59,835 nucleotides of DNA from a virus: IMG/VR virus record IMGVR_UViG_3300027754_000101, positions 1 to 59,835 of that record. One strand, 5' to 3'. The notes under the pieces were generated by a model. It did no database searches. It had not been told where the DNA came from and was given only the letters and a program-made list of their open reading frames with translations. Position numbers and translations under genes: made by a program. Of the stretch, positions 12,789 through 44,507 are shown piece after piece; the stretch's first letter is position 1, and each line of letters begins with the position of its first letter.

Positions 12789-13190
12789 ATGCCTTTAGAA
12801 AGGGTAAGTCAAGGTTTTAAAGATATTAGTATGACTTTTCAGAGTAATCCTTTGAGTAGTGACTTGATTACCCTTAAAAATGAAAGCGCAATTGCACGTT
12901 CAATTCGAAATATTGTATTTACTGTACCAGGAGAGAAATTTTTTAATGAAAATTTTGGTTCTAGAGTAAGTAAGTCTTTATTTGAAAATGTTGACGATAT
13001 ATCGGCATCTATTATTCAGGATGAAATCGAAAATTCAATTTTAAATTATGAACCAAGAGTTGAATTGATTGAAGTTAAAACAAATCCTAACTATGATAAT
13101 AACGAATTTAATGTAACTATAATTTATAAAATTATTGGTGCTGATGTGTCTACGCAACAATTAGAGTTCGTCTTGCAACCTACTAGGTAA
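12789..13190 (+). CDS. 25: Baseplate wedge subunit gp25
   Basis: The 133-residue length and the pattern ESAIARSIRNIVFTVPGEKFFNENFGSRV match the gp25/GpW-like family, in which a conserved N-L-x4-GE-x5-P-x-FG stretch forms the core. gp25 joins the sheath-polymerisation surface of the baseplate to the wedge. It is followed two bases later by gp6, the usual pairing (gp25-gp6). Confidence 0.92.
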   Translation: MPLERVSQGFKDISMTFQSNPLSSDLITLKNESAIARSIRNIVFTVPGEKFFNENFGSRVSKSLFENVDDISASIIQDEIENSILNYEPRVELIEVKTNPNYDNNEFNVTIIYKIIGADVSTQQLEFVLQPTR

Positions 13191-13192
13191 AA

Positions 13193-15115
13193 ATGTCATT
13201 AGTAAATTTTTCAAATCTGGATTTTGACCAGATAAAAACTACTCTCAAAGATTATTTAAGATCAAATTCGAATTTTACAGATTATGATTTTGATGGTTCA
13301 AATTTATCTACAATTTTGGATGTATTAGCATACAACACTTATATCACTTCATACAATGCCAATATGGTAACTAATGAAGTTTTTATTGATAGTGCAACTC
13401 TTAGAGAAAATGTAGTAGCACTTGCAAGAAATATTGGATATGTACCAAGATCAAAAAAATCTGCAGAAGCTAATATTTCCTTTTTTGTAGACACTTCAAG
13501 TGAAACTCTAAAACCATCATCATTGATTCTAAACAAAGGTCCAGTTGCCTCGTCTTCAGGATCTTTTGGAAATTCCTCATTTATTTTTTCAATATTAAAT
13601 GATATAACTGTTCCAGTATTTGATAATATTGCATCATTTGATAATATTTTAGTGTATGAAGGAAATTTGTTATCTACAAATTTTACTGTAAGTTCTTTTA
13701 ATCCAAATCAAAGATTTATTATTCCTAATTCTGGAATTGACACACAACATATAAATGTTTTTGTATTGGAAGATGGATCGAGAGTAAAATATCAATTAAA
13801 AAACGATTTATTTGATCTCAATTCAGAATCTAGAATTTATTTTATTCAAGAAATTGAAGATGAAAGATATGAATTACTTTTTCCCGATGGAATTTTTGGT
13901 AGAAAACTTGAAGATGGTGATGAAATTGAAATTGAATATATTGTAAATAATGGCAATTTAGCAAATGGAATAAATCAATTTCTATTCAGCGGAAGGTTGA
14001 CATATATTAAAAATAATGATTTTATTAATATAACTTCTGGAATATCTTTAATATCAGCAAATACAAATTCAAGTGGTGGTGAAGTAATTGAGTCTGTGGA
14101 GTCTATTAAAAAATATGCACCAAAAGTTTATTCTTCTTACAATAGAGCATTGACTGTTAGTGACTATGAATCTTTAATACCTTCTCGCATATATCCAGAA
14201 ACAGAATCGTTGACAGTTTTTGGTGGTGAAGATTTATCTCCTCCACAATATGGAAAAGTCTTTATAAGCATTAAACCAAGAAATGGTGATTTTATACCCA
14301 ATTTAATTAAAGAAAATATTAAAAATAAACTTAAAAAATATGCTGTTGCAGGTATTGTTCCTGAAATATTAGATTTAAAATATCTTGAAGTTGAGGTAGA
14401 TTCGAAAATATATTACAATACAAATTTGGCACCAAATTCTGCATATGTAAAAAGCATTATAAACTCAAATATAGAAAAATATGCGGAATCTAGCGAGTTA
14501 AATAAGTATGGGGCCAAATTTAAATATAGTAAATTTTTAAAAGTTATAGATCAAAGTGATCCATCAATAACTTCAAATATAACAACTGTTCAAATGAGAA
14601 GAGACTTGAGAATTGTTGCAAATTCCTTTGTTGAGTATCAAATAGGTTTTGGCAATGAATTTCACATAAAGGCATCTCAATTTAATATTAAAACAACATC
14701 TTTTAAAGCAAGAATAAGAAATCAAATTAAAGATGTATATTTTACAGATATTGTCGATAGTAATGATTCTACAAAAGGAAATATTTTTATTTTTAGTTTA
14801 CCTTCACCAGCATCTAAAGATTTTGTTATAGAAAATCAAAATGCTGGGACTGTTGATTATAAAAACGGAGTTATAACGTTAAATACTATTAATATAATTT
14901 CTGCAAAATTTAAAGATGGACGAGAAATTATAGAAATAGCAGCAATTCCACATTCCAATGATGTGATTGGAAAACAAGATTTATATTTAAGACTAGATAT
15001 AAGTAAGAGCAATTTTGAAATGATTCAAGATTCAATCTCATCAGGATTGGATTTTTCAGCTTCTAATTACACAGTATCCTCAAGTTATAGTAATGACAAT
15101 TTAGTAAGATTATAA
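13193..15115 (+). CDS. 6: Baseplate wedge subunit gp6
   Basis: The N-terminal segment LKDYLRSNSNFTDYDFDGSN followed by LDVLAYNTYITSYNANMV matches gp6 of T4-like phages (baseplate J-like family). The length of 640 aa is close to T4 gp6 (660 aa). gp6 forms the dimeric ring that holds the wedges together and changes shape during sheath contraction. It sits between gp25 and the giant wedge-associated protein. Confidence 0.92.
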   Translation: MSLVNFSNLDFDQIKTTLKDYLRSNSNFTDYDFDGSNLSTILDVLAYNTYITSYNANMVTNEVFIDSATLRENVVALARNIGYVPRSKKSAEANISFFVDTSSETLKPSSLILNKGPVASSSGSFGNSSFIFSILNDITVPVFDNIASFDNILVYEGNLLSTNFTVSSFNPNQRFIIPNSGIDTQHINVFVLEDGSRVKYQLKNDLFDLNSESRIYFIQEIEDERYELLFPDGIFGRKLEDGDEIEIEYIVNNGNLANGINQFLFSGRLTYIKNNDFINITSGISLISANTNSSGGEVIESVESIKKYAPKVYSSYNRALTVSDYESLIPSRIYPETESLTVFGGEDLSPPQYGKVFISIKPRNGDFIPNLIKENIKNKLKKYAVAGIVPEILDLKYLEVEVDSKIYYNTNLAPNSAYVKSIINSNIEKYAESSELNKYGAKFKYSKFLKVIDQSDPSITSNITTVQMRRDLRIVANSFVEYQIGFGNEFHIKASQFNIKTTSFKARIRNQIKDVYFTDIVDSNDSTKGNIFIFSLPSPASKDFVIENQNAGTVDYKNGVITLNTINIISAKFKDGREIIEIAAIPHSNDVIGKQDLYLRLDISKSNFEMIQDSISSGLDFSASNYTVSSSYSNDNLVRL

Positions 15116-15119
15116 TAAA

Positions 15120-18100
15120 ATGACAGAAAAAAGAGTTCAATTCAATAACATTGTTAAAAATCAACTTCCAGAATATGTAAGAGAAGAATTTCCTCTTATT
15201 TTAGAATTTTTATCGCAATATTATATTGGGCAAGAGTATCAGGGGGCCCCTGCTGATTTAATACAAAATATTGATCGTTATATAAAACTAAATGAAAATA
15301 CCAATTTTAATCAAAATATCAAATTAAACGGTAATATTTCTTTTGATGATACTACAATTAATATTGATGCAGATTTTGGAACAACAGATGATTTTCCGGA
15401 TTCTTATGGACTTTTTAAAATAAATGATGAAATAATTACGTATAAAAATAAAGACAAATATTCTTTTTTAAATTGTATAAGAGGATTTTCTGGAATAACT
15501 TCATATAAAAAAATTGGAAACCCAGAATCATTACTTTTTGAGTCTTCAATATCAGAAGAGCATAATTCTGGAGATAACGTAGAGAATTTGAGTGTTTTAT
15601 TTTTGAAAGAATTTTTAAGTAAAATAAAAAAACAATTTCTGCCAGGATTTGATGAAAGAAATTTGGTAACTAAAAAAGTACAAAGATTTCCTGGTGGACC
15701 AAGTGATGATTTTTCTTTAGATCAAAATATTTTTATTAAACAATCAAAAGATTTTTATTCATCTAAGGGAACTGACCAATCATTTAAAATTCTATTCTTA
15801 GCCCTTTATGGGGAAAATGTTGAAGTAATAAAACCAAGAGAGTTCTTATTTAGACCATCAGATGCTGGTTATAAAATAACAAATAATTTAGTTGTTGAAA
15901 GTGTATCTGGAAATCCATTTGAATTGGAAAATCTAACTCTTCGTCAGGATTCATACTTTAATATAACAAAAGCATTTTCACCAGTAACAAAAGTGGAAAA
16001 AGTAAATTCCGGAATTGGTACGATAAGTTACTATGAAATAAGTTTAGATTCTGGATATGATAGAGATATTGCAGTTGATGGTGCAATTTATGGAAAATTT
16101 TCAGTTCATCCAAAAACAAAAATAATCGGAGAAGTTTTAATAGGACAAACTTACATTGATGTAGATTCTACTCTAGGGTTTCCTTTAAGTGGAGAATTGT
16201 CTTTAACATACCCAAATGGAGAATCTGGTATTATTAATTATGAGTCAAAAACTTTCACACAATTTTCAAATTGTTCTGGGATAACAGCAACTATATCAGA
16301 TAATACTTCAATTGATATTAATACTTTTGCATATGCTTATGTTGGGATTGGAACCTCAAATTTAATAACAGTTAAAATACGATCAGTTTTAAATTCTCTA
16401 AATATAAACTATGATTCATATTATCATGCTGTCGGAGAAAAACTTAAAATAAAAACTTTAGGTATAAGTTTAAAAGATAAACTATCAAACAATTGGTATT
16501 TCAATACATCCCCATCATTTGAAGTTGAAAAAATCAATTCTCAACTTCCAGGAACTTATCGTATTATTTTATTTGATTCTCACGTATTTAGAATAGGTGA
16601 TTCAATAGAAATCAAAGGTTCTGATGGGTCAATATATAAATTGAGTATAAAAAATATTTTAAGTGATAAAGTTTTTGATTGTGATGGACAATTTAATATA
16701 AACTTAAATTCTAAATTTATTTTAAAAAGAAATAGAACAAAAGCAGTTTCAACAAAATATAATATCAATACAATTGATGCAAATGTTCAAAATGTATATA
16801 AACTTGATAATAGGATATTAGTTTCTTCTTCATCTATTCCATATTATTCAAAACCAATTAATACCCAACTATTATCATATAGTTTAAATGGTATATTTCC
16901 TGAGAGTGAAATTTTTAAAATAACAATAAATTCAGATCATGGATTATATACTGGTGATGCTGTTTATTATACTCCAGAAAAAGATGGTGATACAGTTTTA
17001 AGTTCTCTATTTGAAGAGGGGATTTATTATGTTAAAAGAATAAATCAAAATGATATTAAATTGTCTAGAAGTAGATCAAATATTTTCAATGAAATTTATG
17101 TTAGATTATCTTCGGATAAAAATGTAGTTAATAATAAACTTGAATTATTGTATTTTAAAGGAAAATCTTTAGCAAATCAAAAACTTTTGAGAGAAATTTC
17201 TCCTCCTATAAACGATGGTAATTTATATCCCACAAATCCGGGACAAACTGGAATATTGATAAATGGAGTAGAAATTTTAAATTACAAATCAATAGATTCA
17301 ATTTATTATGGAAATATTGAAAATATAAATGTTGTTGCTGGTGGAGAAGAATATGATATTATAAATCTTCCACAATTAATAATTAGAGATTCTATTGGAA
17401 TTGGTGCCACTGGATATGTGGCAGTGAAAGGAAATTTAAAAGAAATAAAAATTATAAACCAAGGATTCGATTATTTAGAAACTCCCACAATAAAAATATC
17501 TGGAGGCAACGGAAGAGATGCCACAGCAGAAGTAATATTAACTGATACGTTACATCAAGTATCATTCAACTCAGAAGAAAAGTCAGCATTAGTTAATATA
17601 TCAAATAATACTATAGGATTTTCAACATACCACAAATTTAGAAATAACGAACTATTAATTTATAAAACTTTTTCACAAAAAGCAATATCTGGATTGACAA
17701 CTGATTCAAGTTATTATGTCTCGGTCCAAAATCCAACTACGATAAAGTTGTATAAAACTTCAAATGATTCTATTTTAGGAATTAATACAGTACCTTTGAT
17801 TTCATATGGTAAAGGAAATCATACTTTTGAAGCATATAATAAGAAAAAAATAGTAAGTAAGATCACAGTAATAAATCCTGGAATAGATTATGAAAATAAA
17901 AAGAGAACTTGTTCACCTGTAGGAATTATTACATCTCTTGATTTAATACGAATTGTTGATCATGATTATAAATCCGGAGAGTTATTGACATATTCCGTTG
18001 ATGGATCAGCTGCTTCAGGAATATCAACCACAAGTCAATATTACGTTACAAGAATTGATAAAGATAGTTTTAAACTATCAAACATAGGACCATCATCAAA

Positions 18101-21100
18101 TAATCAAAGTTTTTTTTATGAAACAAAACAATATGTAAATATTGAAAGTGTTGGTCTTGGTACTCACATATTTAATTATCCTGAAATAACAGTAGAAGTA
18201 ATTGGAAATATAGGAATTTCATCAGTTTCAACTGATGAATTTAAATGTAAGGTGCAACCAATTTTTCAAGGTGAAATAACTTCTGTTCATTTGACAAATA
18301 AAGGAACACAATATGGATCTTCTGATATTATTAATTATAAAAGAGAACCAGAAATTGAAGTAACAAGTGGTTCTGGTGCAGTTTTATATCCAATTGTTGT
18401 TAATGGAAAAATTATAGAAATTTTAATTAATGATGGAGGAGATTTATATACGTCACCACCAGAACTTATAGTAGATGGGAATGGGTCAGGTTGTGTATTG
18501 ACTGCAATTTTAACTAATGGTAAAATAACATCAGTAAAAGTTGTAAGTTCTGGAATTGAATATCTTCAGAATTTAACAAGTATAAAAGTTATTTCTTCTG
18601 GATCTGGAGCAAAATTTATATCCAATATAAAATCTTGGAACGTTAATTTATTTAAAAAATATTTTGATGTTCTCAATGATGATGATGGTGTAATTTATAC
18701 TAATATTAATAAAAATTATGGATTGGAATACTGTCATTTATATGCTCCTAGAGAACTTAGGAAAACATCTTATTCTACAGATTCTTCAGGGATTCCAAAA
18801 TATTTAGAAACTGATTTACAACAACTTAATGGAATAGGGAGAGAAATTGATTCTCTCAATCATTCACCAATAATAGGGTGGGCTTATGATGGAAACCCCA
18901 TTTATGGACCTTATGGTTATATAACAAAAAAAGGTGGTAATGTTGCTAGAATGAAATCTGGATATATTTTATCTTTAGATTCCAATAGACCATTACTCCC
19001 TCCAGAGTTTTTTGTTGAGGACTTTAAATATTTTCCATCAGATGATGAAACTGTTTTAGATGAAAATAATGGAAGATTTTGCAAAACACCAGATTTTCCA
19101 AATGGTACTTATGCTTATTTTGCAACTTTTGAACCTACTTTAGATAGTGGTGGTATTTTTAATGGGTTTAGAAAACCAAAGTTTCCATATTTGATAGGAA
19201 AAAATTATTCATCAAAACCCAATTCATTTAATTTCAATCCAAATTCGAATCAAGACGAATATAATCTAAATGATAATACTTGGTTGAGGAATTCTTATTC
19301 ATATAACTTTAATAAAAAAAATAGTTATTATGAGTATATGATTTTTCCAAATAAATTGAAAGAGCAAATATCTGAAGTAAAAACAGTAGATGTTGGATCA
19401 ATTGAAGGTGTTGGTATTACATCAGGGGGAATAAATTATAAGGTTGGTGATGAATTAGTATTAGATGTAACAAATATCGGGAGTGGCGGATTTAAATCTA
19501 AAGTATCAAAAATTTCAGGAAAAGAAATAAATTCTGTCAGTGTTTCAAGTACTAGTATTACAAACGTAGAATTTTATCCTATAGGTGGAGGAGGAAATTT
19601 TATTGGATTCTCATCTTCTCCTCACAAATTAAACAATTTTGATACAATTGAAATATCTGGATTAAGCACATCAGCATCATTTGTAGAAGGGTTTTACAAA
19701 ATAGGTGTATCTACAAATAATTTTTTATTGTCGGGAATAGGAACAACGACTATAGGAATATCATCTACTGGAGTGACTGGGATAGTTACTTATATTTCAG
19801 TTAAAGGTAGTTTACTATATCCAGATGTTAGAGAAAACGATATTTTACAAATTGATCAAGAAAAAGTAAAAGTTTTAAATGTTGATGTACTTTCATCTAG
19901 AATTAGAATATTAAGAGAAATTGATGGAACAATTGGGTCTGCCCATACTTCAAATACTCCAGTATATGAAATCTCAAGAAAATTCAATGTGAATGTTGGG
20001 TATAGAACTTCTTTTTTAAACTTAAAAAATGTAGAAATTTATTTCAATCCTTTAGAATCTTTAGGACTAGGAACTATTTCTGGAGTTGGGATTGGTACAA
20101 CTATAAAATTTTCAAATCCTGGTGCCGGACTGACAGAAATTTTTATACCAACAAAAACAATTTATATTCCAAGTCATAATTTAGAAACCGGAGACAGTTT
20201 GCTTTACAATTCTAATGGTGGAAGTACTATACAGACATTCACATCTGGAATTGGAACGACTTCAATATCAAATAACACAATATTCTATGTTGCAAAAATA
20301 ACTTCAGACCTAATAGGAATATCAACAGTTAAAGTTGGTATTGGAACTACTGGAACAATTGTTGGAATTGCTTCAACTACACAAAACATAAGTACACTTC
20401 ATTTTAGTGGTATTGGTACCGGTTTTTATCATAGTTTTAAAGTAAATTACCCAGAAATTTTAACTGGAAGAATTGATAAAAATATTGTGACAGTTTCCAC
20501 TGCAGAAACACATGGACTGTCAAATAAAGACTTTGTTACTATTAAAGTAAATCCGAAAATATCAAAAACTTTTATAGTAAAATATAATGATTATAATAGA
20601 AGGACGACAATAGGATCTAAATCATTTTCATCTGCAGGAATCAATACTACTACAAATACTATAACTATTGTAAGACATAAACTTTTAGGTGGACAAAAAG
20701 TAATTCATACTGCTGATTTTCCTTCTGGTGGATTAGAAAATAATAAAATTTATTATATTAATGTGGTAGATAGAGATAATATTAGACTTTCAAACACTTT
20801 TTATGATTCAACTAGTTTAAAACCTTCAACGATTAATATAACAAGTTCATCTGATGGGTTATTATCTTTAATTAATCCCACAATAGAAGCGTATAGAAAT
20901 TCTAAATTAATTTTTGATCTTTCAGATTCTTCATTATCTCATGCTCAAGAAACTTTATCTGTTTCATCTTTTGATTTTAACTTATTTGTTGCCTCAAATT
21001 TTAATAAAAAATATGAAAAAATAGAAGACAATCTTATTACAATTCAAAAGCAAGGGATTATTGGGGTTTCTACCAATGCTCAAGTATCGGTTACTGTAAA

Positions 21101-24100
21101 TGAAAATACACCAGAATTATTATATTATAAATTAAATCCAACAAATCTCATTTCAATACCAGAAATTAAAAAAGAAATAGTAACAGATAATGAAGTATTT
21201 GGAAATAATAGTATTTTTGTTAGAGATAGTTTTTATAATGGAGATCATGAAATTTTAGTTTCAACTGGAAGCACCTTCACATATAATTTGGAGGCATATC
21301 CAGAAGAAATATCATATACAAGTGAAAATTCTGAAATAAATTATATTACAGATTCTGTAAATGTATCTGGACCAATAAATTCTGTGGATATTATCAGTGG
21401 TGGTTATAATTTTGATATTCTACCAGGAATATCTTCAATTATTACTAATAATGGTATCGGTGCGATTTTAGATTTGCAAAGTTCTTCTATTGGTGCAATT
21501 AAAAGTACACAAATAAAGAATATAGGATTTGATTATCCAACAGACTTTACTATGAGGCCAACTTTTAGAATTCCGAAAATTTTAAAATTAGAACCACTAT
21601 CTTCATTTGATAATATTGGAATTACTTCTTCTGGAATTGGATATGCTATTGCGCCAAAATTAATAGTTATTGATGGAAAAACTAAAAATAGAATAAATGA
21701 TGTAGATCTTAGATATAACGTATCTGATAGTTCAGTATCTATATTAAAAAATACAAAAGGATTATTTCAAATAATTCCAACAATTTTACCAATTCAAAAT
21801 TGTAATGGAGTTGGCATATCAAGTATATCTTACAATTCATCTACTAAAGATGTAACATTAACATTGTCTGTTGGATTTACTACAGTTTTTGGATTCCCAT
21901 TTTCAATAAATGATAAAATTATTGTAGAAGGTGTTTCTATTGGTACTGGTACTACAGCAAGAGGATATAATTCAGAAAATTATAATTATGAACTTTTTAC
22001 TATTACAAATGTAAATCCCAATTATGGTGGATTAACAGCAAATATTACGTACAATTTGAGTCAATTTTTATCAGAAGGCGAAAGTCCAGGAATTTTTGTT
22101 TCAGTGGAATCTTCGGGAGTAGTAGTACCAGAAAAATATTTTCCAATATTTAATTTAAAATTGAAGAAAAATATTTTTTATTTGGGAGAAGAAGTTACAA
22201 CTCTTTCAAATGACAATTTTGGGAAAATGTTTAGATTTGATCCAATAACAGAATATGCAATAATTGAAACTACAGATGATTTTGAAGAAGGTCAAATTTT
22301 ATTAGGAAAATCTTCTGGTGCCCAAGCACTAATAACTCAATCACAGGGATTTGAATTTGATTATAAACTAGATTCATTTTCAAAAGTTTATGGTGGATGG
22401 TCTTATGATGCTGGTATATTGAATGAAACTTCACAAAGAATTCAAGATAGTTTTTATTATCAAAATTTTTCTTATTCACTTAAATCAAAGGTAAACTATG
22501 ATGATTGGAATGACGTTGTAAGTAATTTAAATCATACTTCAGGATTTAAAAAGTTTTCAGACTATCAATTAGAATCAAATACATTGAATATCAATTCTTT
22601 AGTGGTTGGTTCAAGTGATGTTGATTTGAGAATAGATTTAGTTGGAGTTGTAGATTTGAATTGTGTTTATAATTTTGATTTAGTTTCTGAAAATGCATTA
22701 AATATAGATTCAAATATAGTATCTGACGAGATAATATTTAATAGTGTAATATTGAAAGATTACAACGAATCTATTGGAAATAGAGTATTATTATTTGACG
22801 ATATAAGTAACCAATTTAATAGTAACCCAAGACCTACTCAATATAGTGTTGTACATAGGGTTGCTGCTTCTTATGCAAGAACACAAAAATATATTATCTT
22901 TACTAAAGATGCAAGATATACAGATGAAAAAAAATTAACAGTAGCTACATTTTTAATTGATAATAATAACCTTACATATTTAAATCAATATGGAGTTGAG
23001 GGACAAGATGATTTGGGTGATTTTGATGTTACAGTAGATGGTTCAGATGTAATATTACAATTTTATCCACATAAGTTTAGTGTGAATGATTATGATACAA
23101 CATCAATATCATATAATTTAAAAGATTCTTTAACCTCTGTTGGAAGTTCTGATTTTGGGTGTGTGAGTATAGCAACTTCCAGTATTTCAGTTTCTTCCGG
23201 ATCAACTACTACAATAGTTGGAATTGCTGTTACGTACACTTCTTCTAAAATTCTAGTGGAAATAGGAACTCCAAATGGTTTATTTCAATATGATGAGTTG
23301 AATTTAGTTCATAATGGGTCAGACGTTAATTTATTGGAATTTGGTAAAATAAACAATCTTAATGATGATGAATATGTTGGTTCTGGATTGGGCACATATA
23401 ATGCATATATTTCAGGATCTAAAATTAATTTAGATTTTGCACCAAACCCTGGAATTGCAGCAACAGTTAATCTAATTAGAATTTCTATTGGTGATACTTC
23501 ATCTACAGGGATTGGAACATATCAAATGAGACATGTTCTTATTAGAGGAAGTTCTACATCAATAGCATCTTCAACTTCACCAATATCAAATGTTATTGAA
23601 ACATATGATCAAACATATGATGCAGCATATTTTATCGTTCAAGTTTCTGATGTAACAAATAACAGACATCAAATGTCTGAAGTTTTGGTCATTGACAATG
23701 AAACTTATTCACAAACATATCAAACAGAATATGCTGTTGTCGAAACTTCTTCTGGACTAGGAACCATAGGATCTACATGCTCAACTTTTACAAATTTAAC
23801 TTTTACACCCAATCCAAATATAGATGTGGTAGTTAAGGTTTATATGAATGCATTTAAATATGACGAAACCTTGCTACCAGATCAAATAAATTTTAATAAT
23901 GCAATTATTGAAACAGATTTTTCTGAATATTTTGGAACTGAAACTGATATTAAAAGGGAATTTGGATTGACATATGAAACTTATCCAGTATTTGTAAGGG
24001 ACTTTTTAGGAAATGAGAGTTCTGTAGTAAATGTTGTAGACAGTACTATTAAATTACCAAATCATTTCTTTGTTACTGGAGAAAAACTCACGTATACTTA

Positions 24101-27100
24101 TGCTGGAGTTGGTTCAACACAAGCTATTGGTATTGCTGTTACCTCAGTTATTGGTGTTGGAGTTACTGATAAACTTCCAACAACAGTTTATGTAGTTAAA
24201 ATTGATGATAAAACTATAAAATTATCTGAGAGTGCAGAAAATGCTCTCAAATTAATTCCAATCACATTTAATTTGACAAATGTTGGAATAGGAACTTCAC
24301 ATACACTGACAGCACACAATCAAAATAACAAAGTATTAATATCTTTAGATAATAATATACAATCACCAGTTGTTTCAACTTCACAAACAACATCTCTTGC
24401 TAAAGAAGTTAACTCCATTGATGATATAATTTATTTTACTGGTATAACTTCTTTCTTTGGTAGTGATTTAATTAGAATTGGAAGTGAAATTCTCAGAATT
24501 GATGGTGTTGGAATAGGAAGTACTAATGCAATAAGAGTAAAAAGATCTTGGTTAGGAACAAATTATGCTGGTTATTCTACCGGATCTTTGGTGACAAAAG
24601 TTACAGGAAATTATAACATAGTTGGAAATAATTTAAATTTTGTATCTGCACCTTACGGAAATATTCCATTATCGACATCAACAAATAGACCAGATGAAAG
24701 AGACTGGTTAGGAATATCTACTAGTTCTAAATTTCATGGAAGAATGTTCATGCGGTCTGGTGAATTAAATAATTCTAATGAAACTTATTATAGAAATTAT
24801 ATATTTGATGACATATCAGATTCTTTTACCGGAATAATATCTACTTTTACATTAAAATCATCAGGAGCAAATGTAACAGGAATATCAACAAACAACGCAA
24901 TTATATTAATAAATGAAATATTTCAAGATCCTTTTGTTATAGGTGGAGAATCAGATAATTATATCTTGTCAGAATCTCTAGGAGAAACCAATATTACATT
25001 TGTGGGATCTGCATTAACAATTGCGAATGATATAGGAATTTCTTCTTTTCCTAGAGGAGGAATGATAGTTTCTGTTGGATCTAGTAGTGGGTTTGGATAT
25101 CAACCACTAATATCAGCAGGTGGAACTTCTATTATTTCTATTGCAGGAACTGTTCAATCTATCAGTATTGGAAATACGGGATCTGGATATAGAGTTTCTA
25201 CTAATTATCAAATTTTATCAAAAACATCATCTGCTGTTGGAATTGGATCTACTATAATATTTTTACAAAATGAAAATAGTATATTTGGTATATTAAATCT
25301 TTTAAATACTGGATCAAATTGTACTATAGGTGTTGGAACTTATGTATTACCAACAAGTATAGTTTCTATTGCATCAACCTTTATTCGTATTGGAGTTGGA
25401 AGTACTAACTCATATAGTATTCCATCAGGAACTTCTGTAAGTGTGAATATTTCTAATCCTCAAATAGGAATAGTAAATGTCGGTGTTGCAAATAGTTCAG
25501 TAGGTGTTGCAACAGTTACTCATATTGGATTTGCAACTATTATTTCAGGAAGAATCTCATCATCGGTATCAATTACTAATACTGGATCTGGATATACTAC
25601 TTCAAATCCTCCTATTGTAATAATTGATGACCCAAGTTCATATTCTAATATCTCACTCAGATATAGTTCATCTTCTTCTGGATTTGGAACTGAAGCAAAA
25701 ATTGATGTTGTAGTTGGCCAAGGATCGAGTATCATAGATTTTGAAATTAAATCTACTGGATATGGATATGGACAGGGACAAATTTTAACTTTACCTATTG
25801 GTGGATTGTCTGGAATACCAACAACTTCTGGTTATATCCCTTTTGAAATAACAATAGAAAAAACAATTAATGATAAATTTTCTGGATGGAGTGTTGGAGA
25901 ATTGCAAGTTCTTGATAATTTTGATTCTTTATTCAATGGTAAAAGAAGAGTTTTTTCTTTAAAATTAGCAGGAGAGGTAATTGCTATTTTTTCTGGTCCT
26001 GGATCCAATATTAAGGTAGAATATACTTTGTTAGTCTTTATTAATAGTATTTTGCAAGTTCCAGGAGAGGGATATTTATTTAAAGGTGGTACTAATATAA
26101 TATTCACAGAGGCACCAAAAGAAGGAGACACTTCAAATATTATTTTTTATAGAGGAACTGGTGATATTGATGTAGTTGAAAGAGAAGTTTTAAGTACAGT
26201 AAAATCTGGAGACAATCTGACAATAGAATATTCAGCATCTCTTAATCAATCTCCAATTCTTCTAGAAGAAGAGAGACTTATTATTGATATTCCTAGTGTA
26301 AATATAGTTTCTACAAATTCGTATTATGGTCCAGGAAATGTTGATGATCCAGATCTTTTAAGACCAGTTAAATGGTGTAGACAAGTAGAAGATGTTTTTA
26401 TAAATTCTAAAATAGTAGGAAAGAGTAGGGATTTATATGAATCATCTATAAGTCCTTCAGCATATTTAATTAAATCTGTTGGGATGGGTGATACGGAAGT
26501 TTTTGTTGATAATATTCGTCCATTTTTTAATCCAATAAATGAATTTAATTCACTAGCTGTTGGATTAAATCCTTTATTAGATCATTTGTCTTTTCAAAAA
26601 AGTATTTTTATAATTTCACAGGATCCTAAAGTTTCTGCCTCTGCAACTGCTATTGTTTCTGCGACAGGCACAATATCATCAGTTGTGATTACAGACGGTG
26701 GAGTAGGTTATAGCACTGCCACAGTGAGTTTTGGTTCGACAGTTGGTAGCGGTACAACAACTCAGGCATTTGGATCAGTAATTGTTGGTGTAGGAGGAAC
26801 AATCACTGGAATTGCAATTACAAATCCTGGAGTTGGGTATACATCATCAAATCCACCTCAGGTTTTAATTTCTTCACCAGTTGTTACTACAGAAATTAGT
26901 GGAGTTTCTTCTTATTCAGGAGATTCTGGAGTTATTGTTGGATTTGGAACTACCACACAATCATCTACAGATAAACTTATATTTGATTTCTATATTCCAC
27001 AAGATTCTTTCTTGAGAAATACTTCTATAGTTGGAACTGCTATTACTTTAAGTTCTATTAGTGTCAATGATTACTTTACTGTTTATGATTCTAATGTTGG

Positions 27101-27566
27101 TTTTGGAAGTACAGTTTTGATATCCAGAAATAATAATAATGAAATTATTGGATTCGGAACAAATTTTGCAGATAACGTGTATCAAGTTGATTCTGTGGTT
27201 AATGTAAGTGTTGCAAATACTATGATTGGCATTGCAACAGTTGGTACTGCAACAACAACAGTAAGAAGAGTTTATGCTCGAATATCTGGAGTTGGAACAA
27301 TTAACTTTAGTTCTACCTTAATAACTTTTGATTCAACGTCTTCAGTGTTCACATTTGATAATGTTGGAAGTGTTGGAAGTGGATTTACAGGAGTTGTTAC
27401 TCCATCAAATTACTTCGGAAACTTTAGTTGGGGTAAGATACAATTATCAGCAAGAAAAGAACCAAATGAATTCAATTTTTATGGTGATCGAAGATCTGGT
27501 GGAATTACAACATCAGCAATTGTTCAAAGAACTAAACCACTCAAATTTAAGAACTATTTGATCTAA
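15120..27566 (+). CDS. Giant virion structural protein (4148 aa), probable baseplate/tail component
   Basis: One uninterrupted 12.4-kb frame. The N-terminus (VQFNNIVKNQLPEYVREEFP) resembles the giant proteins that follow gp6 in cyanomyoviruses, in the place where T4 has gp7 (1032 aa). Most of the protein is beta-rich, with many imperfect modules of the type I-x3-N-x-G-x-GY-x4-P-x-I and IGIGT/GVGT runs. A YHYH-like domain lies at about residues 1245-1345 (WAYDGNPIYGPYGY ... PDFPNGTYAYF), with the namesake YHYH degenerated to YAYF. Another recognisable block is near residue 3200 (RPDERDWLG). No peptidase motif or membrane segment. Its role as a gp7 equivalent or a tail-fibre-like extension is inferred from position. 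Confidence 0.85.
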   Translation: MTEKRVQFNNIVKNQLPEYVREEFPLILEFLSQYYIGQEYQGAPADLIQNIDRYIKLNENTNFNQNIKLNGNISFDDTTINIDADFGTTDDFPDSYGLFKINDEIITYKNKDKYSFLNCIRGFSGITSYKKIGNPESLLFESSISEEHNSGDNVENLSVLFLKEFLSKIKKQFLPGFDERNLVTKKVQRFPGGPSDDFSLDQNIFIKQSKDFYSSKGTDQSFKILFLALYGENVEVIKPREFLFRPSDAGYKITNNLVVESVSGNPFELENLTLRQDSYFNITKAFSPVTKVEKVNSGIGTISYYEISLDSGYDRDIAVDGAIYGKFSVHPKTKIIGEVLIGQTYIDVDSTLGFPLSGELSLTYPNGESGIINYESKTFTQFSNCSGITATISDNTSIDINTFAYAYVGIGTSNLITVKIRSVLNSLNINYDSYYHAVGEKLKIKTLGISLKDKLSNNWYFNTSPSFEVEKINSQLPGTYRIILFDSHVFRIGDSIEIKGSDGSIYKLSIKNILSDKVFDCDGQFNINLNSKFILKRNRTKAVSTKYNINTIDANVQNVYKLDNRILVSSSSIPYYSKPINTQLLSYSLNGIFPESEIFKITINSDHGLYTGDAVYYTPEKDGDTVLSSLFEEGIYYVKRINQNDIKLSRSRSNIFNEIYVRLSSDKNVVNNKLELLYFKGKSLANQKLLREISPPINDGNLYPTNPGQTGILINGVEILNYKSIDSIYYGNIENINVVAGGEEYDIINLPQLIIRDSIGIGATGYVAVKGNLKEIKIINQGFDYLETPTIKISGGNGRDATAEVILTDTLHQVSFNSEEKSALVNISNNTIGFSTYHKFRNNELLIYKTFSQKAISGLTTDSSYYVSVQNPTTIKLYKTSNDSILGINTVPLISYGKGNHTFEAYNKKKIVSKITVINPGIDYENKKRTCSPVGIITSLDLIRIVDHDYKSGELLTYSVDGSAASGISTTSQYYVTRIDKDSFKLSNIGPSSNNQSFFYETKQYVNIESVGLGTHIFNYPEITVEVIGNIGISSVSTDEFKCKVQPIFQGEITSVHLTNKGTQYGSSDIINYKREPEIEVTSGSGAVLYPIVVNGKIIEILINDGGDLYTSPPELIVDGNGSGCVLTAILTNGKITSVKVVSSGIEYLQNLTSIKVISSGSGAKFISNIKSWNVNLFKKYFDVLNDDDGVIYTNINKNYGLEYCHLYAPRELRKTSYSTDSSGIPKYLETDLQQLNGIGREIDSLNHSPIIGWAYDGNPIYGPYGYITKKGGNVARMKSGYILSLDSNRPLLPPEFFVEDFKYFPSDDETVLDENNGRFCKTPDFPNGTYAYFATFEPTLDSGGIFNGFRKPKFPYLIGKNYSSKPNSFNFNPNSNQDEYNLNDNTWLRNSYSYNFNKKNSYYEYMIFPNKLKEQISEVKTVDVGSIEGVGITSGGINYKVGDELVLDVTNIGSGGFKSKVSKISGKEINSVSVSSTSITNVEFYPIGGGGNFIGFSSSPHKLNNFDTIEISGLSTSASFVEGFYKIGVSTNNFLLSGIGTTTIGISSTGVTGIVTYISVKGSLLYPDVRENDILQIDQEKVKVLNVDVLSSRIRILREIDGTIGSAHTSNTPVYEISRKFNVNVGYRTSFLNLKNVEIYFNPLESLGLGTISGVGIGTTIKFSNPGAGLTEIFIPTKTIYIPSHNLETGDSLLYNSNGGSTIQTFTSGIGTTSISNNTIFYVAKITSDLIGISTVKVGIGTTGTIVGIASTTQNISTLHFSGIGTGFYHSFKVNYPEILTGRIDKNIVTVSTAETHGLSNKDFVTIKVNPKISKTFIVKYNDYNRRTTIGSKSFSSAGINTTTNTITIVRHKLLGGQKVIHTADFPSGGLENNKIYYINVVDRDNIRLSNTFYDSTSLKPSTINITSSSDGLLSLINPTIEAYRNSKLIFDLSDSSLSHAQETLSVSSFDFNLFVASNFNKKYEKIEDNLITIQKQGIIGVSTNAQVSVTVNENTPELLYYKLNPTNLISIPEIKKEIVTDNEVFGNNSIFVRDSFYNGDHEILVSTGSTFTYNLEAYPEEISYTSENSEINYITDSVNVSGPINSVDIISGGYNFDILPGISSIITNNGIGAILDLQSSSIGAIKSTQIKNIGFDYPTDFTMRPTFRIPKILKLEPLSSFDNIGITSSGIGYAIAPKLIVIDGKTKNRINDVDLRYNVSDSSVSILKNTKGLFQIIPTILPIQNCNGVGISSISYNSSTKDVTLTLSVGFTTVFGFPFSINDKIIVEGVSIGTGTTARGYNSENYNYELFTITNVNPNYGGLTANITYNLSQFLSEGESPGIFVSVESSGVVVPEKYFPIFNLKLKKNIFYLGEEVTTLSNDNFGKMFRFDPITEYAIIETTDDFEEGQILLGKSSGAQALITQSQGFEFDYKLDSFSKVYGGWSYDAGILNETSQRIQDSFYYQNFSYSLKSKVNYDDWNDVVSNLNHTSGFKKFSDYQLESNTLNINSLVVGSSDVDLRIDLVGVVDLNCVYNFDLVSENALNIDSNIVSDEIIFNSVILKDYNESIGNRVLLFDDISNQFNSNPRPTQYSVVHRVAASYARTQKYIIFTKDARYTDEKKLTVATFLIDNNNLTYLNQYGVEGQDDLGDFDVTVDGSDVILQFYPHKFSVNDYDTTSISYNLKDSLTSVGSSDFGCVSIATSSISVSSGSTTTIVGIAVTYTSSKILVEIGTPNGLFQYDELNLVHNGSDVNLLEFGKINNLNDDEYVGSGLGTYNAYISGSKINLDFAPNPGIAATVNLIRISIGDTSSTGIGTYQMRHVLIRGSSTSIASSTSPISNVIETYDQTYDAAYFIVQVSDVTNNRHQMSEVLVIDNETYSQTYQTEYAVVETSSGLGTIGSTCSTFTNLTFTPNPNIDVVVKVYMNAFKYDETLLPDQINFNNAIIETDFSEYFGTETDIKREFGLTYETYPVFVRDFLGNESSVVNVVDSTIKLPNHFFVTGEKLTYTYAGVGSTQAIGIAVTSVIGVGVTDKLPTTVYVVKIDDKTIKLSESAENALKLIPITFNLTNVGIGTSHTLTAHNQNNKVLISLDNNIQSPVVSTSQTTSLAKEVNSIDDIIYFTGITSFFGSDLIRIGSEILRIDGVGIGSTNAIRVKRSWLGTNYAGYSTGSLVTKVTGNYNIVGNNLNFVSAPYGNIPLSTSTNRPDERDWLGISTSSKFHGRMFMRSGELNNSNETYYRNYIFDDISDSFTGIISTFTLKSSGANVTGISTNNAIILINEIFQDPFVIGGESDNYILSESLGETNITFVGSALTIANDIGISSFPRGGMIVSVGSSSGFGYQPLISAGGTSIISIAGTVQSISIGNTGSGYRVSTNYQILSKTSSAVGIGSTIIFLQNENSIFGILNLLNTGSNCTIGVGTYVLPTSIVSIASTFIRIGVGSTNSYSIPSGTSVSVNISNPQIGIVNVGVANSSVGVATVTHIGFATIISGRISSSVSITNTGSGYTTSNPPIVIIDDPSSYSNISLRYSSSSSGFGTEAKIDVVVGQGSSIIDFEIKSTGYGYGQGQILTLPIGGLSGIPTTSGYIPFEITIEKTINDKFSGWSVGELQVLDNFDSLFNGKRRVFSLKLAGEVIAIFSGPGSNIKVEYTLLVFINSILQVPGEGYLFKGGTNIIFTEAPKEGDTSNIIFYRGTGDIDVVEREVLSTVKSGDNLTIEYSASLNQSPILLEEERLIIDIPSVNIVSTNSYYGPGNVDDPDLLRPVKWCRQVEDVFINSKIVGKSRDLYESSISPSAYLIKSVGMGDTEVFVDNIRPFFNPINEFNSLAVGLNPLLDHLSFQKSIFIISQDPKVSASATAIVSATGTISSVVITDGGVGYSTATVSFGSTVGSGTTTQAFGSVIVGVGGTITGIAITNPGVGYTSSNPPQVLISSPVVTTEISGVSSYSGDSGVIVGFGTTTQSSTDKLIFDFYIPQDSFLRNTSIVGTAITLSSISVNDYFTVYDSNVGFGSTVLISRNNNNEIIGFGTNFADNVYQVDSVVNVSVANTMIGIATVGTATTTVRRVYARISGVGTINFSSTLITFDSTSSVFTFDNVGSVGSGFTGVVTPSNYFGNFSWGKIQLSARKEPNEFNFYGDRRSGGITTSAIVQRTKPLKFKNYLI

Positions 27567-27591: not shown

Positions 27592-28200
27592 ATGGCAAGA
27601 GTAGCAATAAACACAGGAGCATCTGCAAATGACGGAACAGGTACTAATTTAAGATCTGCTGGTGGGATTCTCAATAGTAATTTTTTAGAACTTTATACTT
27701 ATTTGGGAGCAGGAAGTACAACAGTTCTCTCTGCTCCACTATGGAGTTCCACAAATGCAGGGATTAACACACTCAGAAATGTTGGAATAGGAACCACAAA
27801 TCCAACAGAAAAACTTACAGTTGTTGGAGTAACATCATCAACATCATTTTATGGAGATTCATCATATACTGCAAGTGGTAGATGGACATTAGGTGCCAAT
27901 GGATCTGCTGATTATACTTTCACTGGAATTGGATTTACTCAGACAACTAATGATCCGGTTCTTTATCTTGCAAGAGGTAGAGTTTATGAGTTTGTAAATA
28001 ACTCTGGTGGTAGCCATCCATTTCAAATACGTTTAAGTAATGGTGGTGCTGCGTATAGTGATGGTGTCACTAATAATGGTGGTGCAAGTGGTGTTATAAG
28101 ATTTGAAATTCCATTTAGTGCTCCAAATACTTTATATTATCAATGTACTTCTCATTCTGGAATGGGAAACACAATAAGTGTTTATCCAAATACAATCTAA
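27592..28200 (+). CDS. Virion protein with C-terminal cupredoxin-like domain
   Basis: The N-terminal ~35 residues (NTGASANDGTGTNLRSAGG ... NSNFLELY) form the small tail/fibre domain common in phage structural proteins. It is followed by VGIGTTNPTEKLTVVG, a motif frequent in fibre stalks. Residues ~118-198 look like a cupredoxin: YEFVNNSGGSHPFQI supplies H142, and LYYQCTSHSGMGN supplies C185, H188 and M191. The C-x2-H-x2-M spacing is the one in amicyanin. All four type-1 copper ligands are present, so copper binding is plausible. It lies between the giant protein and gp8, so it is probably in the baseplate or tail. Function in the virion unknown. Confidence 0.8.
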   Translation: MARVAINTGASANDGTGTNLRSAGGILNSNFLELYTYLGAGSTTVLSAPLWSSTNAGINTLRNVGIGTTNPTEKLTVVGVTSSTSFYGDSSYTASGRWTLGANGSADYTFTGIGFTQTTNDPVLYLARGRVYEFVNNSGGSHPFQIRLSNGGAAYSDGVTNNGGASGVIRFEIPFSAPNTLYYQCTSHSGMGNTISVYPNTI

Positions 28201-28233: not shown

Positions 28234-29790
28234 ATGGCAGCAATCATAACTGATCAAATTAGAATATTAAATGCAAAGAATTTTGTTGCGGGTGTAACAA
28301 CATCTACAAATACATATTATTCTTTTGTTGGGTTAACTAATCCAACAAATATACAATCTGATTGGGATTCAAACCCCCCAAGTCCTTCTGATAATTTTGA
28401 TGAGGAAAATAATTATTGGGACACAATGATTGCATTAAAAAAAATAGATAAAAGTGATATTGCATTAGTTGTACCCAAACGTTTTTGGGTATCTGGAACA
28501 ACTTATGATATGTATCGTCATGATTATAGTATTTCAAAGCAAGCAAGGTCAGGGTCCACTAATTTATATTCTTCTAGGTATTTTTTAGTTAACAGCGATT
28601 ATCGAGTTTACATTTGTTTACAAAATGGCACAACTCCAGAAACTCCAAATGGACAACCTTCATTAGATGAACCAGTATTTACAGATTTGGAACCAAAATC
28701 TGCAGGAACTACTGGAGATGGGTATATTTGGAAATACTTATATACTATAAAACCATCTGAGATATCAAAGTTCGAATCTGTTGATTTTATTTCTGTACCA
28801 TCAAATTGGGAAACATCTGTTGAAAATGCTGCAATACGAGATAATGCTATTGATGGATCAATCAAAATAGTTACTATTCTCGACAGAGGTGTTGGTGTTG
28901 GAGTAGCTAACGGAACTTACACAAGAGTTCCAATTAAAGGTGACGGCATTGGGGCAGAGTGTACTATATCTATTGATAATGATCAAAAAGTTGAGTCTAT
29001 TACGGTATCAAATCAAGGGTCTGAATACACTTATGGAAATGTTGATTTAGCAGCAGGAAATATTCCAGTAACATCTACTAATCCAATATTTAATGTAATT
29101 ATTCCTCCAGATGGTGGTCATGGTGCAAATATTTACAGAGAACTTGGTGTAAAAAATGTTCTTCTATATTCAAGAATTGAAAATGATGTTGAAAATCCAG
29201 ATTTTATTACTGGAAATCAAATTTCTAGAATTGGCATAGTAGAAAATCCAAAAGCATATGAATCTATACAGAATTTAAGTTTAAGTAAAGCAAGCGCTGT
29301 TTATGCAATAAAATTAACAGGTAATGCAGCAACATCAGCTACATTTCAGATAAATACCACTATTACACAAACAATAGGGTCAGGAATAACAGCGGCTGGT
29401 AAAGTAATAAGTTATGATCAAACCACTACAGTTTTAAAATATTGGCAAGATAGGACTCTTGCTGGATTTACAACAACTCCAGGAGCAGGAATAGGAATAA
29501 CAAATCCTATCTATGGATATGAGTTAAACAAATTTTTAAGTTCTCCTTTAAGTGGTGGAAGTTTAATAATCAATGGCGGATCAGTTCCACTTGGTATCGA
29601 CACCTCATTTACTGGTATATCTACTGTAATAAATAATAGAACATACTATCTTGGACAGTCATTTACTAATGGTTTGTCTAATCCAGAGGTTAAAAAGCAC
29701 ACTGGAAACATAATTTATGTTGATAATCGCCCATCAATTACAAGGTCAACCAATCAAAAGGAAGACATCAAAGTAATATTGCAATTTTAA
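28234..29790 (+). CDS. 8: Baseplate wedge subunit gp8
   Basis: The C-terminus (HTGNIIYVDNRPSITR, then QKEDIKVILQF) matches T4 gp8 (H-S-G-x-M-I-Y-M-E-N-R-P...EEINILFTF). The N-terminal half has YWDTMIALKKIDKSDIALVVPKR and GDGYIWKYLYTI, as in T4 gp8. At 518 aa it is longer than T4 gp8 (334 aa); the extra is mostly Gly/Thr/Ile-rich beta sequence in the second half. gp8 forms a dimer in the wedge that binds the sheath-baseplate periphery. Confidence 0.92.
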   Translation: MAAIITDQIRILNAKNFVAGVTTSTNTYYSFVGLTNPTNIQSDWDSNPPSPSDNFDEENNYWDTMIALKKIDKSDIALVVPKRFWVSGTTYDMYRHDYSISKQARSGSTNLYSSRYFLVNSDYRVYICLQNGTTPETPNGQPSLDEPVFTDLEPKSAGTTGDGYIWKYLYTIKPSEISKFESVDFISVPSNWETSVENAAIRDNAIDGSIKIVTILDRGVGVGVANGTYTRVPIKGDGIGAECTISIDNDQKVESITVSNQGSEYTYGNVDLAAGNIPVTSTNPIFNVIIPPDGGHGANIYRELGVKNVLLYSRIENDVENPDFITGNQISRIGIVENPKAYESIQNLSLSKASAVYAIKLTGNAATSATFQINTTITQTIGSGITAAGKVISYDQTTTVLKYWQDRTLAGFTTTPGAGIGITNPIYGYELNKFLSSPLSGGSLIINGGSVPLGIDTSFTGISTVINNRTYYLGQSFTNGLSNPEVKKHTGNIIYVDNRPSITRSTNQKEDIKVILQF

Positions 29791-41526: not shown

Positions 41527-43592
41527 TGAAATTTTCAAAATTCTCTCATAAAACTCCACATCTAAAAGGAAAACAACATCAGTTGGATCCTAATTTAGAT
41601 TTGAAACAGTTGGTTCACCATGCAACAGTTCAATATGTTGATCGTGATGTTGATGGGGATGTTGATGTTTATGATAACCCAAAGAAAAAAACACCAGATG
41701 AAAATCCAGTTGGAGTTGATTTTGACAATCTTTCAAAAAAATTAATTGCAAAACAAAAAGGTGAAATTAAACATACCAAAAGAGGTATGGCATATGAAGA
41801 TACTGTGAATGAAGAACCTAGAATTGCAAGAAAACCTGGGCAACCAACAAATTCTAAAAAACACTCTGACCTTTATACCGATGAAAATCCTAAAGGTACT
41901 ATTGGTGGATTAGGATTTAAAGATGTTGTAACAGCAAAACAATCAGTTTCTAAAATTAAAGACTCTGGAAAAACCCATGCACATAAAATCCAGGCAGCAA
42001 TTGCTATGGAACAAAGAGCAAAAGTAATGGGTAAAAGTTCAGAAGCAGCAGTTTTTAGAAGTTTTATTAATTCCATGAAAGAAAAAACAAAGGAAATGAA
42101 CGAAGAAGGTCTTCGTGATTGGTTTGGTAAATCTAAATCAAAGGATGGAAAACCTGGTTGGGTACAATCAGATGGATCTCCGTGTGCTAATGATCCTGGA
42201 GAAACCAAAACTCCTAAGTGTTTCTCACGAGATAAATTAGCAAGTATGAGTAAAGGTGAAGTAGCATCTGCAGTAAGAAGAAAAAGAGAAAAAGATCCAG
42301 GGCAGCAATCAAAATCAGGTTCTGCAGCACCAACTTATGTTTCCACCGATTCCCCCACAAAAAAAATGAAAGAAGAATTTTTTAAAGAAAATCATAAAGC
42401 AATTGCTGCTGGAAAAGAAAAAGATGAAGAAGGGTATATGGCAAGCACCGAGATGGATACAATTGATAGTGCTGTTAAAAAATTAAGAAAAATCATCAAT
42501 AAAGGTGACTCACAATTACCTGCCTGGGTTCAATCTAAAATTACCAAAGCAGCAGATTATATTGATACTGCAGCAGACTATTTGGATAGTAATGAAATGT
42601 CTGAAGAATCTGACAAAAAAACTAAAGGTAGTGGGACTAAAGATGCTTGTTATACTAAAGTAAAATCAAGATATTCAGTTTGGCCTTCAGCATATGCATC
42701 AGGAGCACTTGTAAAATGTCGTAAAGTTGGTGCTGCTAATTGGGGAAATAAATCAGAAGAATTAGAAATATCTTTAGTTGAAAAAATACTTGGTGAAGAA
42801 AAGTGTGGTAAAGGAATGTATTGGTGCAATACAAATAAAGAATGTAAACCTCTACCAAAAGGGTTTGATGTCCCTGGACAAAAAATCAAACCAACTGAGG
42901 TTGGTATTGGGAAACCAGTAGAAGGGTCTTGTAGTAAAACAAAAAAAGGAAAAGATTGTCCAGTACACGGAATGGATGAGTGTCCAATGAGTGTTGATGA
43001 GGCATGTTGGACTGGATATAAGAAAAAAGGTATGAAAACTATGTTTGGTAAAAAATATCCAAACTGTGTAAAAGTTGAAAATGTTGAAATTGAAGAGTCA
43101 GTTCGCATTCCAGCAAAAACAGGTAATATTATTTCGGTGATGTTTAATTGGAGAGGTAAAACTTATGGAACAAAAATATTTTTCCCACAGATAAGTATCC
43201 CAACTAGAAAGGATGTTGAGTATGAAATTCAAAAAATTTACCCTGATTGTAGAATTTTGACTTTCAAAGTTTCTGAATTTGTTCCTGGGCAACCATTAAT
43301 TTATGTTAACAAATCTATGAATGAAGAAATTGAAATAGAAGAGGGTGCTGCTTGGACTAAAAAGTCTGGTAAAAATTCTGAAGGTGGTTTAAATGAGAAG
43401 GGTCGTAAATCTTACGAAGCAGATAATCCTGGTAGTGACCTCAAAGCACCTTCAACGAAAGTTGGAAATCCCCGCAGAAAGAGTTTCTGTGCTCGTATGA
43501 AAGGTATGAAGTCAAAACTTACAAGTCCAAAAACAGCAAGAGATCCAGACAGTAGGATTAATAAATCATTGAGAGCTTGGAATTGTAACTAA
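41526..43592 (+). CDS. Multi-domain Lys/Cys-rich virion-associated protein (688 aa)
   Basis: No enzyme motif, but at least five short basic modules are visible: GLRDWFGKSKSKDGKPGWV with a following C-x13-C (around 195-235); TKDACYTKVKSRYSVWPSAY with ASGALVKCRKVG (about 373-406); CGKGMYWCNTNKECKPLPKG (about 426-445); DEACWTGYKKKGMKTMFGKK (about 494-515); and a C-terminal SFCARMKGMKSKLTSPKTAR followed by DPDSRINKSLRAWNC. Such modules are shared among marine phage proteins (I recall DUF5872- and DUF6321-like names). High Lys content suggests DNA or capsid-lumen binding. It overlaps gp17 by one base. Placement between gp16 and gp17 hints at a packaged internal protein; unproven. Confidence 0.7.
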   Translation: MKFSKFSHKTPHLKGKQHQLDPNLDLKQLVHHATVQYVDRDVDGDVDVYDNPKKKTPDENPVGVDFDNLSKKLIAKQKGEIKHTKRGMAYEDTVNEEPRIARKPGQPTNSKKHSDLYTDENPKGTIGGLGFKDVVTAKQSVSKIKDSGKTHAHKIQAAIAMEQRAKVMGKSSEAAVFRSFINSMKEKTKEMNEEGLRDWFGKSKSKDGKPGWVQSDGSPCANDPGETKTPKCFSRDKLASMSKGEVASAVRRKREKDPGQQSKSGSAAPTYVSTDSPTKKMKEEFFKENHKAIAAGKEKDEEGYMASTEMDTIDSAVKKLRKIINKGDSQLPAWVQSKITKAADYIDTAADYLDSNEMSEESDKKTKGSGTKDACYTKVKSRYSVWPSAYASGALVKCRKVGAANWGNKSEELEISLVEKILGEEKCGKGMYWCNTNKECKPLPKGFDVPGQKIKPTEVGIGKPVEGSCSKTKKGKDCPVHGMDECPMSVDEACWTGYKKKGMKTMFGKKYPNCVKVENVEIEESVRIPAKTGNIISVMFNWRGKTYGTKIFFPQISIPTRKDVEYEIQKIYPDCRILTFKVSEFVPGQPLIYVNKSMNEEIEIEEGAAWTKKSGKNSEGGLNEKGRKSYEADNPGSDLKAPSTKVGNPRRKSFCARMKGMKSKLTSPKTARDPDSRINKSLRAWNCN

Positions 43593-44479: not shown

Positions 44480-44490
44480 GTTTATAGGAT

Positions 44491-44498
44491 TATAAATA
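44491..44498 (+). promoter_or_regulatory. Late promoter motif TATAAATA inside the intein cassette
   Basis: Exact T4-type octamer, 12 bases after the stop of the N-half gene and 10 bases before the GIY-YIG start. It could provide separate late transcription of the endonuclease and the C-half of gp17. Confidence 0.65.
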
Positions 44499-44507
44499 AA
44501 AATAAAA

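Follow-up and report, generated by a model that had tools for sequence, protein, structure and literature searches.

A putative copper-binding cupredoxin tip on a gp9-like baseplate fibre protein of a probable marine T4-like cyanophage

The virus DNA analysed here (IMG/VR virus record IMGVR_UViG_3300027754_000101, positions 1 to 59,835; the whole stretch of 59,835 nucleotides is referred to as the window) encodes at 27592..28200 on the + strand a gp9-like baseplate fibre protein of 202 aa, which matches PHROG_677, 'baseplate wedge tail fiber protein connector', with an E-value of 4.4e-48 and ends in a predicted cupredoxin domain with the four ligands of a type-1 copper site. Based on its sequence and on structural models, it seems fairly probable that this protein is a gp9-like fibre of a marine T4-like phage whose cupredoxin tip binds copper and is used for host contact. 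The open reading frame given in the first-pass annotation proved to be real, with an ATG start.

The genomic context of this gene is that of a T4-type baseplate gene cluster, in which it lies between the positions of gp7 and gp8. The cluster comprises gp25 (12789-13190), the baseplate wedge gene gp6 (13193..15115, + strand; PHROG_219, E = 9e-188), which fixes the context as T4-type, and, upstream of the cupredoxin gene, a giant protein of 4148 aa (15120..27566, + strand), assigned to the gp7 position by synteny with cyanophage gp7. The latter matches the YHYH family (PF14240, E = 3.8e-19) as well as, below the cut-off, Baseplate_wedge (E = 5e-5). Downstream, baseplate wedge gp8 (28234..29790, + strand; PHROG_438, E = 1.5e-158; 66% identity to gp8 of S-SM2) is followed by a gene for a 2516-aa protein, and genes for capsid, portal, sheath and tube lie beyond the cluster. 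The resulting gene order gp7 - gp9 - gp8 is matched in P-TIM68 and RB11-B. As the major capsid protein of the window shares 80-86% identity with its counterparts in Synechococcus and Prochlorococcus myoviruses, the source is likely a marine cyanophage, and the virus is probably a marine T4-like phage with a cyanobacterial host. Elsewhere in the window (span 43592-46233), the terminase large subunit is encoded in two pieces (43592-44479 and 45070-46233) with a homing endonuclease (44508-45077) between them, and a 231-aa protein at 11845-12540 matches a PHROG named ferredoxin (E = 1.8e-48) and no Pfam family.

The N-terminus of the 202-aa protein is of the tail/fibre type, as had been suggested by the first-pass annotation. 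Residues 5-58 match T4 gp10 chains in a sequence search of the PDB (E = 6e-4), a PHROG of baseplate wedge subunits matches the same end (E = 1e-5), and the Pfam family T4_gp9_10_N (PF07880) is hit weakly and below its cut-off (E = 0.0013). Hence, the protein combines a gp9/10-type N-terminus with a match to the PHROG_677 family profile, and residues 1-58 (27592..27765, + strand) are assigned to a T4 gp9/gp10-like baseplate anchor. NCBIfam gave no match to the protein. When it was searched by itself against PDB sequences, the highest-ranking matches apart from gp10 were antibody chains and transketolase, which are considered chance. The anchor is followed by a very short fibre shaft of residues 59-95 (27766..27876, + strand) with one GIGTTNP-type repeat, at which position relatives carry several hundred extra residues, and then by the cupredoxin domain of residues ~96-200 (27877..28191, + strand), supported by the AF2 model, by Foldseek and by matches of relatives to PF00127.

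This arrangement is found repeatedly among relatives. Out of 153 cupredoxin-domain ORFs, 82 also possess a gp9/10-type anchor at the N-terminus; in 73 of these 82 the domain ends no more than seven residues from the C-terminus, while the ORFs range from 207 to 1189 aa in length. The immediate upstream neighbour is gp7 in 56 of the 82, and the immediate downstream neighbour is gp8 in 57. The window protein is the shortest one found to carry both anchor and cupredoxin. Two proteins of 871 and 780 aa (L002 and L005) are 80-93% identical to it at both ends and have a far longer shaft, which indicates a variable shaft between conserved ends. From its position in the sequence, the cupredoxin domain would form the exposed tip of the fibre. 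Proteins of the T7-like cyanophages P-SCSP2 and P-GSP1 carry the same domain at the N-terminus, and in a tail fibre of pelagiphage HTVC028P it lies close to the C-terminus; it is thus a module of several tail proteins. A YHYH domain lies at 18837-19136 of the window, corresponding to residues 1240-1339 of the 4148-aa protein adjoining the cupredoxin gene, and in other cyanophages the gene following gp9 encodes a full-ligand cupredoxin and then a YHYH domain that is interrupted by a ligand-less cupredoxin. YHYH and cupredoxin domains seem to travel together.

Structure prediction bears out the comparison with cupredoxins that had been proposed for the C-terminal part. An AF2 model of this domain, computed with an alignment of 84 relatives, displays eight strands at a pLDDT of 93.9 and a pTM of 0.86, superseding a single-sequence model with a pLDDT of only 33. 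In a Foldseek search against the PDB, copper cupredoxins make up nearly all of the top 50 matches, 21 of them with E-values of at most 0.001. The best match is nitrite reductase 2dv6 (E = 1.3e-4), others being rusticyanin, AcoP, plastocyanin, amicyanin, laccases and CuA domains, and the TM-scores of the domain model against solved cupredoxins amount to ~0.45-0.58. At the sequence level, the window protein on its own matches none of the Pfam copper families, while 45 of the 84 relatives match Copper-bind (PF00127) at E-values of up to 1, the best being 6e-5. A profile of the domain retrieved copper nitrite reductase 2vmj as its first-ranked PDB match (E = 0.0022) and plastocyanin 1b3i (E = 0.15), the latter with all four ligands in register. 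Since 2vmj has an amicyanin-type CTPHPFM loop, on which its match leans, close kinship with this enzyme is not taken as proven. HHalign against 20 cyanobacterial plastocyanins likewise aligned the four ligands at an E-value of 0.0015, yet with a probability of just 16.6%. Taken alone, the predicted cupredoxin fold of the C-terminal domain is nearly certain. Similar predicted folds are also displayed by 'beta-sandwich proteins' from Marseillevirus- and pithovirus-like viruses (BFVD matches A0A481YWX9, A0A481Z7Q7, A0A481YY19 and A0A481Z6J5).

Within this fold, H142, C185, H188 and M191 were confirmed at the positions and with the C-x2-H-x2-M spacing given by the first-pass annotation. The 202-aa protein contains just two histidines, one cysteine and two methionines, one of which is M1; each of the two histidines, the cysteine and the single internal methionine is hence one of the four proposed ligands. 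According to the AF2 strands and the plastocyanin alignment, they sit at the canonical type-1 strand and loop positions: as in cupredoxins, H142 is located between strands 131-136 and 144-147, C185 closes strand 180-185, and H188 and M191 belong to the loop preceding the last strand. A chance motif can be ruled out, as the pattern H-x30-60-C-x2-H-x2-M is absent from a set of 3,445 unrelated ORFs (539,111 aa) and did not arise in any of 20,000 shuffled versions of the protein sequence.

All four residues are unchanged in 88 of 88 distinct domains, and synonymous codons are used at each of the three ligand sites that have two codons. On the + strand, the codon of H142, in an HPF motif (28015..28017), is CAT in 65 and CAC in 19 cases, that of C185 at the end of strand 7 (28144..28146) TGT in 57 and TGC in 27, and that of H188 (28153..28155) CAT in 37 and CAC in 47; the codon of the axial ligand M191 lies at 28162..28164. 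H142 and C185 align directly with the corresponding residues of plastocyanin, and M191 aligns with the plastocyanin methionine across a two-residue gap. Pro143, directly after the first histidine, is present in 87 of the 88 domains. The invariance of C185 and H188 in this set is partly built in, as some of the search patterns contained YYQCT-x-H; H142 and M191 were part of no search pattern. Because the patterns held C185 and H188, the ligand test was repeated without motif selection by tblastn on named phages. Here, 31 of 39 domains keep His, Cys, His and Met, and all four ligands are retained in 35 of 44 domains with less than 70% mutual identity, at identities to the window domain as low as 18%. 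In the remaining nine, Cys185 as well as His188 is missing or fails to align; such joint loss would be expected if a metal site is either maintained or abandoned as a whole. The earlier reading as a type-1 copper domain has gained a predicted cupredoxin fold, a complete ligand set, a loop of amicyanin-type length and purifying selection on the ligands, and copper binding by the predicted domain is likely.

The ligand-incomplete copies bear on another explanation, according to which the domain is a structural beta-sandwich only, i.e. a cupredoxin-derived accessory fibre domain comparable to the Ig-like domains of tails, in which the ligand residues would serve packing or form an apo site and the virion would contain no bound metal. 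In seven cyanophages (P-SSM3, P-SSM4, Syn19, S-RIM2, syn9, S-TIM4 and ACG-2014a), the long product of the gene that follows gp9 contains a second copy without the ligands. A natural ligand-less domain was also observed in the tail fibre of S-B05 (L124, 7440-9785), in which the first histidine is replaced by phenylalanine, the cysteine by alanine and the second histidine by valine, with the methionine kept (F, A, V, M). The persistence of such copies implies that the metal is dispensable for the fold, and it agrees with a purely structural role, as does the modular occurrence of the domain in C-terminal, internal, N-terminal or tandem position across tail proteins. Packing, however, leaves unexplained why four ligands should stay invariant down to 18% identity while their codons change synonymously, and why the cysteine and the second histidine should disappear together. 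A metal-free structural role is therefore regarded as rather unlikely.

Phages are assembled in the cytoplasm, where copper is scarce, which counts against a copper site. Zinc is available there, and sites composed of histidine and cysteine readily take it up; zinc or another ion might accordingly occupy the site, or a free Cys185 might be used chemically. Methionine, however, is a poor zinc ligand, and the invariant methionine as fourth ligand together with the C-T-x-H-x2-M loop matches blue-copper sites, so that a different metal or a free cysteine appears very improbable. If copper is the metal, it could be acquired after lysis or from the copper of the dying host, since the protein carries a phage anchor in place of an export signal. 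In the proposed mechanism, the T4 gp9/gp10-type anchor would attach the fibre, and the unusually short shaft would carry the C-terminal cupredoxin as an exposed tip; copper would be held in the mature virion at H142, C185, H188 and M191, where the metal site might lock the tip loops, and the tip face might be used in contact with the host surface. A metal-binding tip or adhesin domain is the most likely function.

A more active role of the metal has also been weighed, in which contact with a reductant on the host surface makes the copper cycle between Cu(I) and Cu(II) and triggers a baseplate rearrangement, or electrons are exchanged with a host protein. Type-1 relatives of known function, such as plastocyanin, amicyanin and rusticyanin, perform electron transfer and are among the Foldseek neighbours of the domain, which also shares the ligand loop length of amicyanin. 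The sequence features nevertheless fit redox and structural copper alike, and no partner, reductant or second redox domain is tied to the protein. Additionally, the gene is optional, as S-SM2 and SynMITS9220M01, close relatives of the window phage, lack it between gp7 and gp8, so that some lineages can do without it at this locus. Hence, a redox-active tip is quite unlikely, and electron transfer by the domain is possible but unsupported. For the marine T4-like cyanophages as a group, redox-active type-1 copper on baseplate fibres, serving host contact or triggering, is unlikely as well. T4 gp9 is trimeric and present on six wedges, which would amount to up to 18 copper centres per particle if the same applied here. 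If redox copper were used throughout the group, infection would depend on copper and phage particles would hold a share of ocean copper.

Returning to the metal-binding tip, the earlier assignment to the virion is supported by a protein that is built alike. S-SZBM1_206 (498 aa) shares with the window protein the anchor (51% identity over 39 aa) and the C-terminal domain with the four ligands (43% identity), and it was detected by mass spectrometry in CsCl-purified S-SZBM1 virions with nine peptides and 24.9% coverage (PMC9146016). By analogy, this supports the window protein as a virion protein. S-CREM2, for which a virion proteome has also been published (PMC10665884), was absent from the phage search results and gives no link to the domain.

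The domain is no oddity of this one phage: several hundred marine phages among those sequenced have it, as do some bacteria in proteins that they secrete. By tblastn, relatives of the protein turned up in 325 records out of 50,697 for phages, almost exclusively Synechococcus and Prochlorococcus phages, and the 'gp9' proteins of hundreds of cyanophage records carry the domain as their C-terminal tip. In cellular genomes, it was detected in 3 of 244 cyanobacteria, 17 of 185 Gammaproteobacteria and 9 of 198 Bacteroidota, and nearly all bacterial copies scanned display the His, Cys, His, Met pattern. In one gammaproteobacterial chromosomal family (L154-L162; ~450-535 aa), the cupredoxin lies close to the N-terminus and a long tail of helical appearance comes after it. 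Capture of a host plastocyanin gene in a fibre is not supported, given the rarity of the domain in cyanobacteria (3 of 244), which have ordinary plastocyanins.

Cupredoxins as such are well known; a conserved cupredoxin tip on phage baseplate fibres was not found in the literature searched. This literature search, with subscription papers mostly outside its coverage, returned no description of a copper domain in phage tails, and a CASP15 paper mentioning copper-binding and a tail fiber is unrelated. In S-SCSM2R, a gene annotated 'PetE' (L152, 5911-6417) encodes this tail-type domain and is adjacent to a structural gene of the peptidase S8 type. Since this homologue bears the name 'PetE' in GenBank, annotators have already met the likeness, and some phage 'PetE' (plastocyanin) genes may be tail proteins and not photosynthesis genes. 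Cyanophages kill a large share of the ocean's photosynthesisers, and a conserved metal site appears to be present at the fibre tip of these phages. Hence, virus particles may carry copper, which would provide a chemical handle on cyanophage host contact and connect infection with copper levels.

Among known systems, the closest are the cyanophage gp9 connectors of PHROG_677 (S-RIM8, Syn19, P-SSM4, S-SZBM1_206), with which the window protein shares the gp9/10 N-terminus, the adjacency to gp7 and gp8 and the C-terminal cupredoxin with His, Cys, His and Met, although these connectors are usually ~400-550 aa long with a longer shaft. T4 gp9 and gp10 resemble it in the N-terminal baseplate-binding stretch and differ in everything beyond residue ~58, as no T4 gp9 or gp10 sequence matched the cupredoxin part. 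With amicyanin, plastocyanin and pseudoazurin (PF00127), the domain has in common the cupredoxin fold, the His-Cys-His-Met order and the C-T dipeptide, and with amicyanin in particular the ligand loop C-x2-H-x2-M, represented by C185, H188 and M191. In contrast to these proteins, it shares only ~22% identity with them and sits on a virion protein without export signal, and it has a proline after the first histidine where plastocyanin, azurin and amicyanin have an asparagine. Amicyanin, moreover, is exported to the periplasm and has methylamine dehydrogenase as gene partner, whereas the phage gene lies in a baseplate cluster and encodes a T4 gp9/10-type anchor, and no dehydrogenase is present among the genes scanned. 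The type-1 domains of multicopper oxidases and copper nitrite reductases provide the best Foldseek match (2dv6), and at the first ligand the His-Pro of the phage domain is reminiscent of 'VNNTGTYHPMHIH' in McoA (6ttd), but the phage protein has a single cupredoxin domain and no type-2 or type-3 ligands. Finally, the secreted cupredoxin-domain proteins of Gammaproteobacteria and Bacteroidota share the same profile and the His-Cys-His-Met pattern; unlike the window protein, they are chromosomally encoded, are ~450-550 aa long and carry no phage anchor, and a lipoprotein-like signal is present in at least one of them.
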